Part shown: one piece after another, positions 40,041 to 47,029 of the stretch
Numbering within the stretch: position 1 is the stretch's first letter
Layout of the letters: every line of letters starts with the position of its first letter
Assembly (NCBI GenBank): GCA_027046965.1
Contig: JALTWR010000008.1
Location: 85,324-149,323, forward strand
DNA length: 64,000 nucleotides
Source: Candidatus Altimarinota bacterium
GTDB lineage: Bacteria; Patescibacteriota; Gracilibacteria; Absconditabacterales; Absconditicoccaceae
Direction: 5' to 3'
Translations under genes and position numbers: made by a program
Notes under the pieces: model-generated
Database searches by the model: none
What the model saw: only the letters and a program-made list of their open reading frames with translations
What the model was told of the DNA's origin: nothing

Positions 40041-42302
40041 ATGCTCAAAGCGTTAGATAAGTTTTTTGATTATAAACCGGTTTTGTCTATTGAGGAGTTA
40101 GAAAGGACAGATTTCAAGAATCTTTTGGAAACTGCAAAAACCTATCTTTCTGAAGATGAAGTTGCAAAAGTAAAGCAAGCCTATGAATTTGCTAAGCAAG
40201 CTCATGGAGATGATAAGAGGCTTTCAGGTGAGCCTTATTTGGTTCATCCTGTTAAAGTTGCTAATTTTTTAATGGTTTTGAAGCCAGATATTGAAACTAT
40301 AATTACAGCTCTTTTGCATGATGTGATAGAAGATACGCCTTATACTTATGAAGATATTCAGGTCCGTTTTTGAAAAAAAGTAGCGGATATGTGTAGTGGT
40401 TTGGAAAAAGTATCTAAAGTTAGATACAAAGATCTGCCCAAGGATAAGGCAGGAGAAGCTAGACACTTGGAAACTCTAAAAAAGACCTTTTTGGCAATGG
40501 GTAGAGATTTGAGAGTAATATTTATAAAGCTAGCAGACCGTGTACATAATATTCAAACTTTACATTTTCATCCCAAAGAAGAAAAAAGGAAAAGAATAGC
40601 TCTCGAGACAATGAAAATTTATGTCCCTATTGCTCAAAGACTTTGATTAAGTTATTTTCAAACATTATTGGAAAATGGTAGTTTTAAAATATTGAATCCT
40701 CAGGAATTTGATAGGATATACTCATTTTTGAAAAAAAAGTTCCCCCAATCAGATGTAATAATTAAAAGGGGAATACAAAAACTAACCCAGCTTTTTGAAA
40801 AAGAATGATTTAAAGAGTTTGAAATTAAATGAAGAATCAAGTCTCCATATAGGGTATGGAAAAAGATGCAAAAATACAAAACTGATAATCCAGCGAAGAT
40901 TTTGGATATAATAGCATTTAGAATAATATTGCCTGATGTGGCATCTTGTTATGCTGCATTGGGGATTATTCATCAGTACTATATACCTTTGCTAAACAAA
41001 ATTAAGGATTATATTTCTTTGCCTAAGCCAAATGGATATAGGTCTTTGCATACGACTGTTTTAGGATTTTTTTCCTATCCTGTTGAATTCCAAATAAGAA
41101 CATTTGAGATGGATCAAATTGCAGAATATGGTGTTGCAGCTCATTTTGCTTACAAGGAGGCTGGTAAATCTGTTAGTGTCAGTCAACAACAAGCCCATTG
41201 GATTCAAAAGCTTCAAGAAATAGTTAAAAAATACCAATGATATGATGATAAGCAATCTTTTGAAGATGAGCTTCAGGTTGAAGTTTTAGGTAAAAATATT
41301 TTTGTGTATACTCCTAAGGGGGATGTTGTAGAGTTACCTCAAGGTAGTTGAGTTTTGGATTTTGCCTTTAGAATTCATACAGATATCTGACTAAAAGTTA
41401 AAAGTGCTATTGTTAATTGAAAGATTGTTCCGTTGGATTATAAGCTTAAAACCTGAGATATTGTCGAGATTAAAACTTATAAAAATAGGTATTCTGCTTC
41501 CAAAGGTTGGTTAAACTATATTGTTACACCTAGTGCTAGGGCTAAACTTCAAAGATTCTTGAAGCAAAAAGACAAAGAGTTGTATATTCAAAAGGGGAAA
41601 GAGCTTCTAAATGCCAGATTAGAAGAATTGGGCCTTCCGTTGTTGGGTTCGGCGGAGGATAAAATCTCCAAACAACTATCAAAAGATGAGTTAGAAAACA
41701 ACTTGATATTAATTGCTCAAGGACAACTTCCTATGCTGAGATTTCTTAAAAAGTTTTGGTTAAGAGAAATAGAGGCTTTGGAAAAACAAAAATTAGCTAA
41801 ACAGCAAGTAAAGGATGAGATTCAAAAAGATTTAGCATCTGTTAAAAGTGAGGTGATCATAGATTTTGATAAATCTAAACTTAATTACTCCTTTTGTCAG
41901 GCTTGTAATCCTAAAGTATGAGATAGAATAATAGCTAAGACAGGTAGGACAGCTATCAAAGTGCACAAAATTAGTTGCAAATCTTTAAAATCTATTAATT
42001 ATGCTCATCTTTTAGAGGCTCATTGGGAAAATCAACAACCTCAACCGTACAAAATTTCTTTTAGAATTTGGGTTTTGAATAGGCCTGGGGCATTGTTGCA
42101 GCTACTTTCCGTTTTAGAAGAATTTAGAATCAACATATTGGACCTCAAATTAGGAGACAAAAAGATGATAGATGGACAAGAGTATGTGGCTACTGAATTA
42201 GTACTTTCTTTAACCCAACCAGCTAAAATTGGTTATCTAATCAAAGAGTTGAAAAATCAGCGTAGATTGGTAATATGTGATAAACTAGATTTGGTCGAGT
42301 AA
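40041..42302 (+). CDS. rel: bifunctional (p)ppGpp synthetase/hydrolase (RelA/SpoT homolog)
   Basis: A 753-residue long RSH protein. HD hydrolase domain: YLVHPVKVANFL with His, LLHDVIEDTPYTYED with HD and ED, and FIKLADRVHNIQTL. Synthetase domain: GRIKSPYRVWKKMQKY, ILDIIAFRIILPD and PKPNGYRSLHTTVLG. Then come a TGS domain (IFVYTPKGDVVELPQGSGVL), a helical and Cys-containing region (CQACNPKVGDRIIA) and an ACT domain (RIWVLNRPGALLQLLSVLEE). Both catalytic sites look intact. It synthesises and degrades the alarmone on amino-acid starvation. Its own promoter lies upstream; the zinc-ribbon gene follows. Confidence 0.96.
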
Positions 42303-42817: not shown

Positions 42818-45800
42818 ATGAAGGACAATAAAAAAGTTGTTGAAGAAGTGTTGAACTTTTGGAGAAACAATAAAATTTTTCAAAAATCTGTCTTAAATAA
42901 TCCACTAGATAGGAATTTTATTTTTTATGATGGGCCTCCATTTGCTTCAGGGACTCCTCATTACGGCCATCTTTTGGCATCGTCTATCAAGGATGTGATT
43001 CCAAGATTTATGTCTATGAAATGATGGAGAGTATATAGGAAATGGGGGTGGGATTGTCATTGATTGCCAGCTGAGAATTATGTTGAAAAGAAACTTTGAA
43101 TCTCTTGAAAAAAGGAAATAGAGGAAAGGTTATGAATTCAGAAGTTTGTTGAAGCATGTAGAGCCGCAGTAATGCAAGTTAACGATGAATGGAAACGGTT
43201 TGTGGATCATATTGGAAGATGGGTTGATATGGAAAATGCTTATTTCACCATGGATGTGGATTTTATGGAGTCGGTGATATGGGTGTTTTCTTCTTTGTAC
43301 AAAAATAATCTTATATATAAAGCCTTTAAGCCACAAGGATATTGTCCAAGGTGTGGAACAACACTTTCTAACAATGAAATTAACGAATGATATGCACCCA
43401 AGCAAGATCCAGCTATTACGGTGAGATTTCCATTGAATGAACAACTATCTAAATTTACCCCCATAGTGGCGTGAGTTATTAAAGACTCACAATGAAGAAT
43501 ATTAATGTCTTACCACAATAAGGAAAATATATTCTTACTATTTGGTGGTAAAGTTGAACAAGGTGAATCTTTAGAGGAAGCTTTAAAGAGAGAGCTTGAA
43601 GAAGAGTTAGGTATCAAGACTAGATCTGCCCAAAAGCTTGGTGCGATGAAGATTATTCATAGAGGTAGGCCATACAAAGTTTATTATTTTGATGTACAAG
43701 ATTGGGAAGGTGAAATTAAAAACAAAGAGCCTCATTTACATAAAGATCTAAAGCGAGTTGAGGTCGTTCAGGATTTAGACTCTCCCTTGGGTTGGGGGGC
43801 AAAAGTTGATGGTGTGATAATTGATGATCCATCAAGACTTATAAGGGAATACGTTGATTTGTGGATTTTGCAATCTTGAATTTTAAAAGATGAAGGCACA
43901 CTAGATGCTCCATTTAATCTTCTAGCTTGGACTACAACCCCTTGGACATTACCATCCAATATGTTTTTAACAGTTGGAGAAGATATTCTCTATTCAATCA
44001 TCTGGGATAAAAATGATAGGCAATATTATGTTTTGGCAACAGCTAAGCTAAAAGACTATTACAAAAGTAGATGAGATTTTATTGAGGTTTATCGTCTTCC
44101 TGGACAGGAGCTTCAATGATTGGCTTATCAGCCACTTTTTGATTTTTATTTAAAATCTTCTCATATAGACCCTTTTTACAAAGATAAAGTTTTCAAAGTT
44201 TTAGTTTGAGACTTTGTTAGTACTGAAGAGGGAACTTGAATCGTACATATGGCACCTGCATTTTGACAAGATGATTTTAATCTGGTGGCCAGTCAACCTG
44301 ATTTCGGGCTTAGAAATACTGATAGGTGGCTTTTTAATCCTGTTGATGATTTTTGAAAATTTACTAATGAAGTAGGTCTTTGGCAATGAAAAAGTGTTTT
44401 TGAGGCAAATAAGGAAGTTATCACTTATCTTAAAGAACACGGAAAAATAGTAAAGCACCAAACTATAGAGCATAGTTATCCTCATTGTCGGCGTTGCGGT
44501 ACACCTTTGATTTACAAGGCTGTACCATCTCGGTTTGTGGATGAACCTGCACTTAGTGAGGAGTTGGTAAATAGAGCACAAGATCTTTATTTCGTACCTG
44601 AAAGTGTAAAGAATAGGTTTTTGAACCTTTTAAAAACTGCTCCAGAGTGGAACATTTCTAGGGCTAGATATTGGGGCTCTCCTTTGCCTGTGTGGGAGAG
44701 CACTGACTATAACTTGGACAAAGCTAATGAAATAAAAGCAACCCTTCAGAGGCGGGGTATATCTAAAGATACTGTTTTTGATAAAAGGAATTGAAGGATT
44801 ATTGTTGGGTCCTTGGATGACCTTTACAAGTTTGATAAATTTGGATGAGGACAGTCTATAAGTAGAATTTTGCTTACGAGGCATTGAGAGGCTATTTCAA
44901 ATATCAAAAAAACCTTTGACTTGAAATGAAGTGCTTTAACCGAAAAAGGGCAACAACAAGCTAAAGAGCTAATCTGAAAGCTGGAAAATTTGGCAGCTGA
45001 CGATCTTAAAAGGGGTGATTTTGTGATAATTGTTTCTCCTTTGAGAAGAACATTTGACACAATTTATCCTTTACTTCAGCAGTATTTAGGGACAGAGGCA
45101 GAGGAACTCTCTAAAAAATATAAGAAAATTGCTAGTGAGTGGGAACAGGCTATCCAAAACAAGGATCTCTCAGTGTTCAATATGTCTCCAGTGTGGCTCA
45201 AGGATGGAGTGGTCTTAGTTGATTTTAGGCTTGCAGAGAGAGGCCTCTTTTCTCTGGAGGGTAATACTCCTGGTAAATGAGAGGAATTCATTACCGCAGG
45301 CTTTAATGGGGATGAGTCTTATCAAAATTTTGAGGCAAGAATTAAGCAATTTTTAAAGGATACTATAGTTAAATTCGGGGGGAAGAGTATAATTGTAGTT
45401 TGACATGGAGCTCCACTTTTGCTTATGAGACATATTCTGGAGGGTAAAGGATCTATTCAAAATAAGCTTGATTATATTGATGAGTTGATGTTGCCCAAAG
45501 CACAGTCTTATTTGATTTTTGGAGATAAATTAAAAACTCAGCATTTTGAATCGCCTCATAGTGTAGATCTGCATAGACCATATGTTGATCGATATAAATT
45601 TGATATATCTGGTTTAACTTTTTTTAGGATAAAGGAGGTTCTTGATTGCTGGTTTGAGTCTGGATCTATGCCTTATGGGCAAGAAAATTATCCTCATAAA
45701 TACAGCAGATATGGGATTCCCAAAGATAAATTTCCATTTCCAGCAGACTTTATAGCTGAAGGTCTGGATCAAACCAGAGGATGGTTCCATGCATTGCATG

Positions 45801-47029
45801 TGATATCAAATGGGGTGATGAGTGCCAACTCCTTTAAAAATGTGGTGGTAAATGGGTTGATATTGGCAGAAGATGGTAAAAAAATGTCTAAGAAATTAAA
45901 AAATTACCCAGACCCTAAAAAATTACTAGATAAGTATTGACCTGATGCATTTAGACTTTATGTGCTAGGATCGCCTGCTGTTAGAGCAGAACCTCTAAGA
46001 TTTAGCGAAAAATGAGTAGATCAAGTTCTTAAGTCTATGGTATTGCCGTTGGGTAATGTTTATAATTTTTTGGAGATGTATGCAAAAGCCGATTGATGGC
46101 AAAATAACTCTCCAAAGATATGGTTTATGAGGCATGCCAAAGCTGAAGGTACTCACAAAGATGCTTCTGTTTTACCACAAGATCTTCAAAGGATACAAAA
46201 TGGAGAATTGGATGAGATATTACTTAGGATACGTCCAGATGTGATTTTGTATTCTCCATGGCTTAGGACAACTCAAACAGCTGAATATATTAGACAGAGG
46301 TTGGAGCAAATTGGAGTGAGTCTTAAAGAATTTAAATCATTGGAGGAATTAGCTCTAGAAGTTCCTCAAGATAGAGTTTTAAAATGATATCAAGATATTG
46401 TTAAAAATTATCCCGGTCAAAAGGCGCTGATAGTTTCTCATAAGCAAGTAGGTGGCTTGTTGTTTTCAAAATTACTTGGGGTTGGTGGTTCTATATCTAT
46501 GGAAAATCTTGAAGTAATTTGATTGCCTACACAACAGATTAAAAGTGAGTTGGATAAATGGATTTTATCTGAGTTTAATCTGGTTTTACAAAGGGTAGAG
46601 GAATACTTAAATAAGTATGTATTAGATTTGCCTGTGAAAGAAATAGATAACTTTATTGATAAATTTACTAATTGGTATTTGCGTAGGTCTAGAAGGAGAT
46701 TCTGGGCTTCGGGAATGGATGAAGATAAAAAAGGAGCTTATTGGACGCTATCATATATTTTTGAAGGATTGCTAAAAGTTATGGCACCTTATGCTCCATT
46801 TATGACAGAAAAAATATGGTTGGAGGCAAAAAAAGCTGGTCTTATGCGAGGAGAAGAGAGTATACATCTTGAAGGGTTTCCATTGGCTTTTGCTCATTAT
46901 ATTGATCAAAAACTTATGGAGGAAATTAATTTGGTAAGGAAAATAGTTAAATTGGGGCTATATTTGAGGTCCAAAAATAAAATAAAAGTTAAACAGCCTT
47001 TACAAAAGCTTTACATAAAATTAGAATAA
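42818..47029 (+). CDS. ileS: isoleucyl-tRNA synthetase with inserted Nudix and two histidine-phosphatase domains
   Basis: A continuous 1403-codon frame. The synthetase body is plain: DGPPFASGTPHYGH (HIGH, H48-H51), WDCHGLPAENYVEKKLG, WTTTPWTLPSN and GTGIVHMAPAFGQDDF of the editing domain, ISRARYWGSPLPVW, VLDCWFESGSMPYG, DGKKMSKK (1021-1026), and NWYLRRSRRRFW of the anticodon domain. Three foreign domains interrupt it. Residues about 206-330 are a Nudix hydrolase (PIVAGVIKDSQGRIL; Nudix box GGKVEQGESLEEALKREL and EEELGI). Residues about 684-905 are a histidine phosphatase (LLTRHGEA, H689; VVGHGAP, H863). Residues about 1098-1235 are a second, SixA-like one (WFMRHAKAEG, H1106; VSHKQ, H1208). 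The protein ends soon after KIKVKQPLQKLY, so the last part of the usual C-terminal region is missing. Charging of tRNA-Ile is expected; the inserts may hydrolyse ApnA or other nucleotide by-products (inference). Confidence 0.93.

Follow-up and report, generated by a model that had tools for sequence, protein, structure and literature searches.

Why should the body of an isoleucyl-tRNA synthetase (IleRS) be interrupted by three whole domains from hydrolase families? The question is raised by a gene at positions 42818-47029 of a 64,000-nucleotide stretch of DNA (contig JALTWR010000008.1, from a Candidatus Altimarinota bacterium of the class Gracilibacteria), which we analysed at its full length and refer to as the window. 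The encoded protein carries one Nudix domain and two histidine phosphatase (HP) domains, HP1 and HP2, as separate inserts in a synthetase core. We favour, tentatively and with a probability of roughly 0.4, a reading in which the inserts would act in cis as phosphohydrolases that remove phosphorylated by-products or dead-end ligands arising at the synthetase. The features on which the argument draws are listed by position in the window; core positions refer to a profile built from six insert-free relatives of the same class (1037 columns), onto which every protein was mapped.

42818-47029, plus strand: IleRS open reading frame with its inserts, ATG to TAA (stop included), 1403 amino acids under genetic code table 25, with 28 TGA codons read as glycine.
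42959-42970, plus strand: HxGH signature of the class I active site, HYGH, residues 48-51 (position mapped).
43451-43915, plus strand: insert A, Nudix, residues 212-366, at core position 221, the N-terminal entry to the editing (CP1) domain (profile).
43547-43615, plus strand: complete Nudix box GX5EX7REUXEEXGU, residues 244-266 (sequence).
43928-43960, plus strand: editing motif WTTTPWTLPSN, residues 371-381, with T372-T374 invariant in 67 aligned rows.
44747-45520, plus strand: insert B, HP1, residues 644-901 (HP match 684-886), at core position 480 (profile).
44879-44887, plus strand: HP1 nucleophile motif R688-H689-G690, with G690 encoded by TGA.
45404-45406, plus strand: second catalytic histidine of HP1, H863, unchanged across all 20 aligned site-B HPs.
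45881-45895, plus strand: KMSKS-type signature KMSKK, residues 1022-1026 (position mapped).
46112-46531, plus strand: insert D, SixA-like HP2, residues 1099-1238, at core position 676, with R1105-H1106-A1107 and H1208 (profile).
46553-47008, plus strand: Anticodon_1 domain, residues 1246-1397 (Pfam), with no counterpart of the usual C-terminal domain downstream.

Read under table 25, the frame contains no internal TAA or TAG, as the first-pass annotation had it; table 11 splits it into pieces. TGA encodes not only Gly690 of the RHG motif but also Gly862, the first glycine of GHG in HP1. HxGH and KMSKS are active-site signatures of class I synthetases and TTTPWT is an editing motif; all are present here, as HYGH, KMSKK and WTTTPWTLPSN. 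Pfam detects tRNA-synt_1, NUDIX (E 3e-12), His_Phos_1 (E 4.9e-24) and Anticodon_1, and the NCBIfam model TIGR00392 (ileS) gives 775.8 bits against a curated equivalog cut-off of 621.4, which places the protein among the IleRS. In the host genome (0.85 Mb, 94.8% complete, 32 contigs) it is the sole full IleRS found; the other matches of the IleRS search, on contig 6 and contig 2, are ValRS-like and LeuRS-like genes. The best solved matches are yeast IleRS (7d5c, 8wnd) and Priestia IleRS2 (8c8u), of the eukaryote-like type, with which the core, editing and anticodon domains align. Compared with these, the window protein adds three enzyme domains and, ending at core position 835 of 1037, lacks the usual C-terminal domain.

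The inserts had been said to leave the core alignable, and both the mapping onto the core profile and the structure prediction agree, the model doing so for the first two inserts. A prediction from 67 sequences, with these two inserts included, reached a predicted local distance difference test (pLDDT) score of 91, and its core superposes on yeast IleRS over 660 residues at 3.2 Å; in an earlier prediction from 17 sequences, confidence in the catalytic core had been low (mean pLDDT 63). Both models span residues 1-1100, HP2 and the anticodon domain lying outside. The 50 VIA-align matches listed for the model are all synthetase or editing-domain entries, with no HP or Nudix among them. As predicted, then, the IleRS fold would be kept by the core with the first two inserts in place.

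Each insert can be assigned to its family after excision. Insert A matches NUDIX (PF00293) at E 7.4e-14 (52.3 bits, cut-off 21.1), and all residues of the Nudix box consensus (PMC11784022) are present (G244, E250, R258, E259, E262, E263, G265, I266). Insert B lies between WGSPLPVW and DLHRPYVD; its HP1 matches PF00300 at E 7.1e-16 (58.9 bits, cut-off 21.7) and shows the RHG, the second arginine (column R69 of the site-B alignment) and the H863 of a branch-1 HP. Insert D, which follows the catalytic core and precedes the anticodon-binding domain, matches PF00300 at E 8.3e-11 (42.4 bits), with RH near its start and a second histidine, again as in branch 1. The editing domain, within residues 367-643, separates the Nudix and HP1 inserts. 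The first-pass annotation had proposed a Nudix at about residues 206-330, a histidine phosphatase at about 684-905 and a SixA-like one at about 1098-1235, all with intact catalytic residues; the profile searches recover the three domains, with the nearby boundaries listed above, and the motif residues are in place in each.

The same insertions recur when related genomes are searched. The family of the window was represented by 36 genomes including its own, and the IleRS was read in 35 of them (G016 was left out). The Nudix insert is present in 27, and 19 have inserts at all three sites, five others with a Nudix lying on truncated contigs. Five members are without a large insert (L036, L038, L048, L051 and L052, of which L038 is truncated), and further layouts exist: a GNAT domain at site A in L040, and one HP in L042 or two in L043, in both cases at site B.

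It is reasonable to suppose, from the alignments, that most inserts are working enzymes, because the catalytic residues of the HPs persist amid divergence. The glutamates of the Nudix box (alignment E55, E58 and E59, which are E259, E262 and E263 of the window protein) are invariant in 25 aligned inserts. Among 20 site-B HPs, the RHG, the second arginine, one glutamate and the second histidine are invariant, the other domains being 22-28% identical to that of the window. Over 136 embedded HPs that cover 120 or more model positions and score 20 or higher, a filter that excludes site D of L049, L057 and L058, truncated domains and 12 later loci, the nucleophile histidine is found in 136, the first arginine in 134, the second arginine in 135 and the second histidine in 132 (among the four exceptions is a truncated domain), at a median column identity of 34%.

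As to the kind of enzyme, the solved relatives nearest to the Nudix by profile are MutT, NudG and RppH-type enzymes, with MutT, NudG and BdRppH the best. The Ap4A or ADP-ribose subgroups of Nudix enzymes tend to have Tyr some 17 positions, or Pro some 15, downstream of the box, a rule that is not absolute; the window Nudix has His281 and Gly283 at these positions. HP1 is nearest to phosphoserine phosphatase 1 (PSP1; 4ij5) and PhoE (1h2e), and HP2 shows weak SixA and PSP1 matches, with PSP1 (E 2e-8) ranked ahead of the SixA entries 2rfl (1e-6) and 1ujb (0.0039). These nearest relatives are stand-alone enzymes. Matches to the PspA and CobC models are common to all 20 site-B inserts, but HP1 of the window scores far below the curated cut-offs (37.7 bits against 350 and 41.5 against 162.9, respectively).

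Phosphatase inserts are not confined to this family. Of 127 genomes sampled from the class, 112 yielded an IleRS (the other 15 are outside the counts). It contains an HP in 71, comprising 14 of 17 from the family of the window and 57 of 95 others; one of these 57, L132, is degenerate at the active site. HPs enter the core at positions 467-495, 512-514, 544-553 and 670-713; several IleRS have a tandem pair at 467-495, and L078 and L149 have three HPs per protein. Nudix domains were found outside the family in L070 (Pfam) and L151 (profile built here), and 66 of 92 HP-bearing IleRS that were read have no match to the family Nudix profile. GNAT inserts occur outside the family in L068, L083 and L126, and L149 has a serine-hydrolase-like insert at 20.8 bits, under the 22-bit cut-off, with a like stretch in L151. 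In the phylum beyond the class, site-B HPs were seen in the IleRS of at least 8 of 73 genomes, a lower bound since 20 were read, the rest were judged from frames or matches, and some IleRS are fragmentary or missing.

Other synthetases carry HPs as well. A PF00300 search across 30 class genomes returned 25 HP-bearing frames of more than 600 amino acids, all of them synthetases (19 IleRS, 5 ValRS, 1 AlaRS); none of the shorter HP-bearing frames (up to 522 amino acids) was identified as a synthetase, and three genomes (G156, G174, G199) have no HP at all. The valS cut-off is passed by L156, L160 and L164 and the alaS cut-off by L163; L161 and L162 were assigned to ValRS at 48% and 55% identity to L160 over their length. 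HP-seeded searches among long proteins point the same way: the 120 listed of 1944 matches are all synthetases by their Pfam lists, as are 14 of 14 with a second seed. In a tree, embedded HPs cluster for the most part according to host and site, free HPs falling between them, and the AlaRS HPs are nested among those of ValRS (SH-aLRT 83-94). On a thinned set (113 of 156 rows), the approximately unbiased (AU) test rejects neither one clade of all embedded HPs (p 0.309) nor one clade of all IleRS HPs (p 0.108). A single origin is thus not rejected, and our claim therefore extends to distinct insertion sites and hosts but not to distinct gene captures.

We prefer the clean-up reading because the phosphatases occur specifically in synthetases and keep their active sites. 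In this reading the inserts would be active as hydrolases, and the selected property would be tethering to the synthetase, since HPs stand at four IleRS sites, in ValRS and in the unrelated AlaRS and in no other frame of more than 600 amino acids in the 30 genomes. The substrate would be a small phosphorylated molecule connected with aminoacylation, perhaps a damaged nucleotide or a dinucleoside nucleotide in the case of the Nudix and a phosphomonoester in that of the phosphatases. Synthetases are reported to form ApnN from the aminoacyl-adenylate (PMC7705103), so that clearance of nucleotide side products by the Nudix is a fair guess; an HP without a Nudix, the commoner case, would need a phosphomonoester.

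Several observations weigh against this reading. The Nudix is absent from 8 of the 35 family IleRS. In the rest of the class, 38 of the 95 IleRS lack an HP; of these, 16 were read (L191 and L197 being partial) and the other 22 were judged solely by frame length, their open frames not exceeding 1100 amino acids. Insert types differ widely (GNAT, Y1_Tnp, the weak serine-hydrolase match), which fits a general tolerance of insertions no less well than one common task. Among the 25 of 48 families listed for the window protein, no Nudix or phosphatase subfamily model passes its curated cut-off; none of those listed for excised HP1 does so either. The site-D insert of L049, L057 and L058 is kept without an HP match, and one site-D active-site residue is replaced in each of L053 and L054; HP2 is therefore probably not an enzyme in at least 5 of 21 family members. 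Going by these sequences, HP2 looks optional, and the Nudix and HP1 look as though they have been kept as enzymes. Finally, the data show insertion at differing sites and in differing hosts, but not repeated capture of HPs.

The strongest competitor builds on these same points. The inserts may be tolerated or structural, in loops of large synthetases that accept compact domains with close ends, and may now be sensors, scaffolds or nothing, any catalysis by them having no bearing on charging; we consider this rather unlikely. The variety of inserts (HP, Nudix, GNAT, Y1_Tnp, the weak serine-hydrolase match and some of unassigned kind), the degeneration of HP2 and the frequency of HP-less IleRS in the class would all follow from it. 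So would a further regularity: every complete family protein has either a site-D insert (21 proteins) or the C-terminal domain (8 proteins), never both, so HP2 could replace the lost domain structurally. Tolerance alone, however, does not readily explain why the active sites of the Nudix and HP1 are invariant while the remainder diverges, or why, among long frames, HPs are found in synthetases alone.

Repair of the tRNA acceptor end would be a more specific purpose: the Nudix would trim a 3′ pyrophosphate and the phosphatase would remove a phosphate, leaving a tRNA delivered by the synthetase chargeable again. toxSAS enzymes are reported to pyrophosphorylate the 3′-CCA end of tRNA, and a small alarmone hydrolase to reverse the modification (PMC11559606). 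The Nudix part of our first model has BdRppH, an RNA pyrophosphohydrolase, among its matches; site B comes after CP1; and AlaRS, too, is among the HP hosts. Set against this, MutT-type structures match that Nudix about equally, most of the HP-bearing IleRS that were read have no match to the family Nudix profile, and we know of no HP that acts on RNA. RelA_SpoT matches occur in 25 of 25 genomes regardless of HP status, and this test therefore does not discriminate. We regard the repair function as clearly improbable.

Still less probable, in our view, is that the phosphatases erase protein phosphorylation, removing from the synthetase or a partner the inhibitory phosphate that, for example, HipA-type kinases would add. 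Such kinases are reported to inhibit glutamyl- and tryptophanyl-tRNA synthetase (PMC6581861, PMC8262856), the Nudix domain of MutT1 is reported to act as a protein phosphatase on phospho-NDK (PMC11784022), and the SixA and PSP1 matches of HP2 would suit such a role. But HipA_C (PF07804) is above its cut-off in none of 25 genomes (one sub-cut-off match, in G040), 19 of which have an HP-bearing IleRS. Least of all do we credit an assembly or gene-calling artefact: the genome is in 32 contigs, but relatives in other genomes and data sets carry the same architecture (a cluster of 10 sequences at 97% identity, one protein at 80% and many full-length proteins at 41-47%), the alignment and model are coherent, and neither chance nor the misassembly raised by the first-pass annotation can therefore be the source of the inserts. 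Across the protein-database searches, the matches bear the labels Absconditabacteria, SR1, Absconditicoccaceae, Peregrinibacteria, Peribacteria, Gracilibacteria, Moraniibacteriota, Paceibacterota and Falkowbacteria; a contig-level genome scan with the window IleRS matched no relative.

The clean-up reading has partial parallels among known systems. Nudix and HP domains act on phosphate bonds and belong to families other than CP1. The CP1 editing domain of class Ia synthetases is nevertheless a precedent for a hydrolytic clean-up domain within the catalytic core, and it is still present in the window IleRS; the LeuRS-type editing family is reported to insert solely into synthetase hosts (PMC13114784). 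An IleRS with an extra enzyme domain is represented by the NCBIfam model ileS_w_GNAT (NF040702), and GNAT inserts occur in the class too, but the window protein, which contains no GNAT, falls outside that family, at 287.5 bits where the cut-off is 1999. Mycobacterial MutT1 unites the same two domain families in one polypeptide, with an N-terminal Nudix and a C-terminal HP, whereas the domains of the window protein are separate synthetase inserts, and it is not a MutT1; the MutT1 model is matched by 3 of 20 site-B HPs at E 0.001.

The architecture had been put forward as undescribed. No description of such synthetase fusions is among the literature matches listed, from a search outside which most subscription journals and preprints lie, and the main text of a Gracilibacteria metaproteomics study (PMC11452946) makes no mention of tRNA ligase or synthetase, isoleucine, phosphatase or nudix. 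The window protein is not unique, given how many synthetases of the class and phylum carry such inserts, and automated annotation already records the domain mix, in Pfam lists and in the JGI name "isoleucyl-tRNA synthetase/bisphosphoglycerate-dependent phosphoglycerate mutase". Such synthetases are thus public as sequences and, as far as the literature search reached, undescribed.

Some neighbouring and individual cases deserve mention in their own right. A link to the stringent response was considered and dropped: the RelA/SpoT gene directly upstream in the window (40041-42302) is beside IleRS in none of 23 family loci. It thus lends no support to the alarmone control which, with Ap4A clean-up, the first-pass annotation had thought plausible and which would be one conceivable role. 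Of the neighbouring open reading frames tested in these loci, two matched, in one locus only (L037). The ValRS-like protein of the window genome (L157:1031-4096, plus strand, code 25) has about 120 extra residues after WGHRLPVWY, the place of the phosphatase in its relatives; Pfam finds no extra domain in this stretch. The ValRS at L164:1003-5298 (plus strand) carries three HP inserts. The class II AlaRS at L163:2303-5482 (plus strand) has its HP inserted before the DTYGFPLDLT stretch, and P0242 is a second such AlaRS.

Inserts of other kinds were also seen. A Y1 transposase (IS200-like) domain lies in the editing region of IleRS at L069:2975-3508 (plus strand, Pfam) and at L137:1328-1768 (plus strand, similar sequence). 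An uncharacterised domain occurs twice in one 1805-amino-acid frame of L126 (859-1485 and 2500-3588, plus strand), beside a GNAT and a phosphatase, and recurs by similar sequence at L083:2567-3643 (minus strand); one copy has a sub-threshold MuF_C match. Three IleRS of one other family (L105, L106, L108) have about 128 residues at site B and about 90-100 at site A, of unassigned kind, and the IleRS of P0128 combines a phosphatase with a P-loop kinase-like insert (Pfam list and sequence).

A wider reading, conceivable but doubtful, is that translation in Patescibacteria has a separate layer of phosphate clean-up, a second kind of proofreading directed at phosphate instead of the amino acid, for which HPs, often with a Nudix, would have been put repeatedly into IleRS, ValRS and AlaRS at differing sites, so that these synthetases would also strip phosphate from their own substrates or products; the repeated insertion in this proposal goes beyond the tree and AU evidence. 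What the family and its relatives present is essential, conserved synthetases interrupted mid-body by whole enzyme domains, at differing sites, in hosts of class I as well as class II. Were the inserts active, charging would be physically tied to phosphate chemistry in these bacteria, and we know of no other lineage that needs such a tie. Activity would also point to a compound that limits translation in small cells, such as a damaged nucleotide, a dead-end ligand or a blocked tRNA, and the reason for the extra synthetase domains would become testable by mutation of their active sites.

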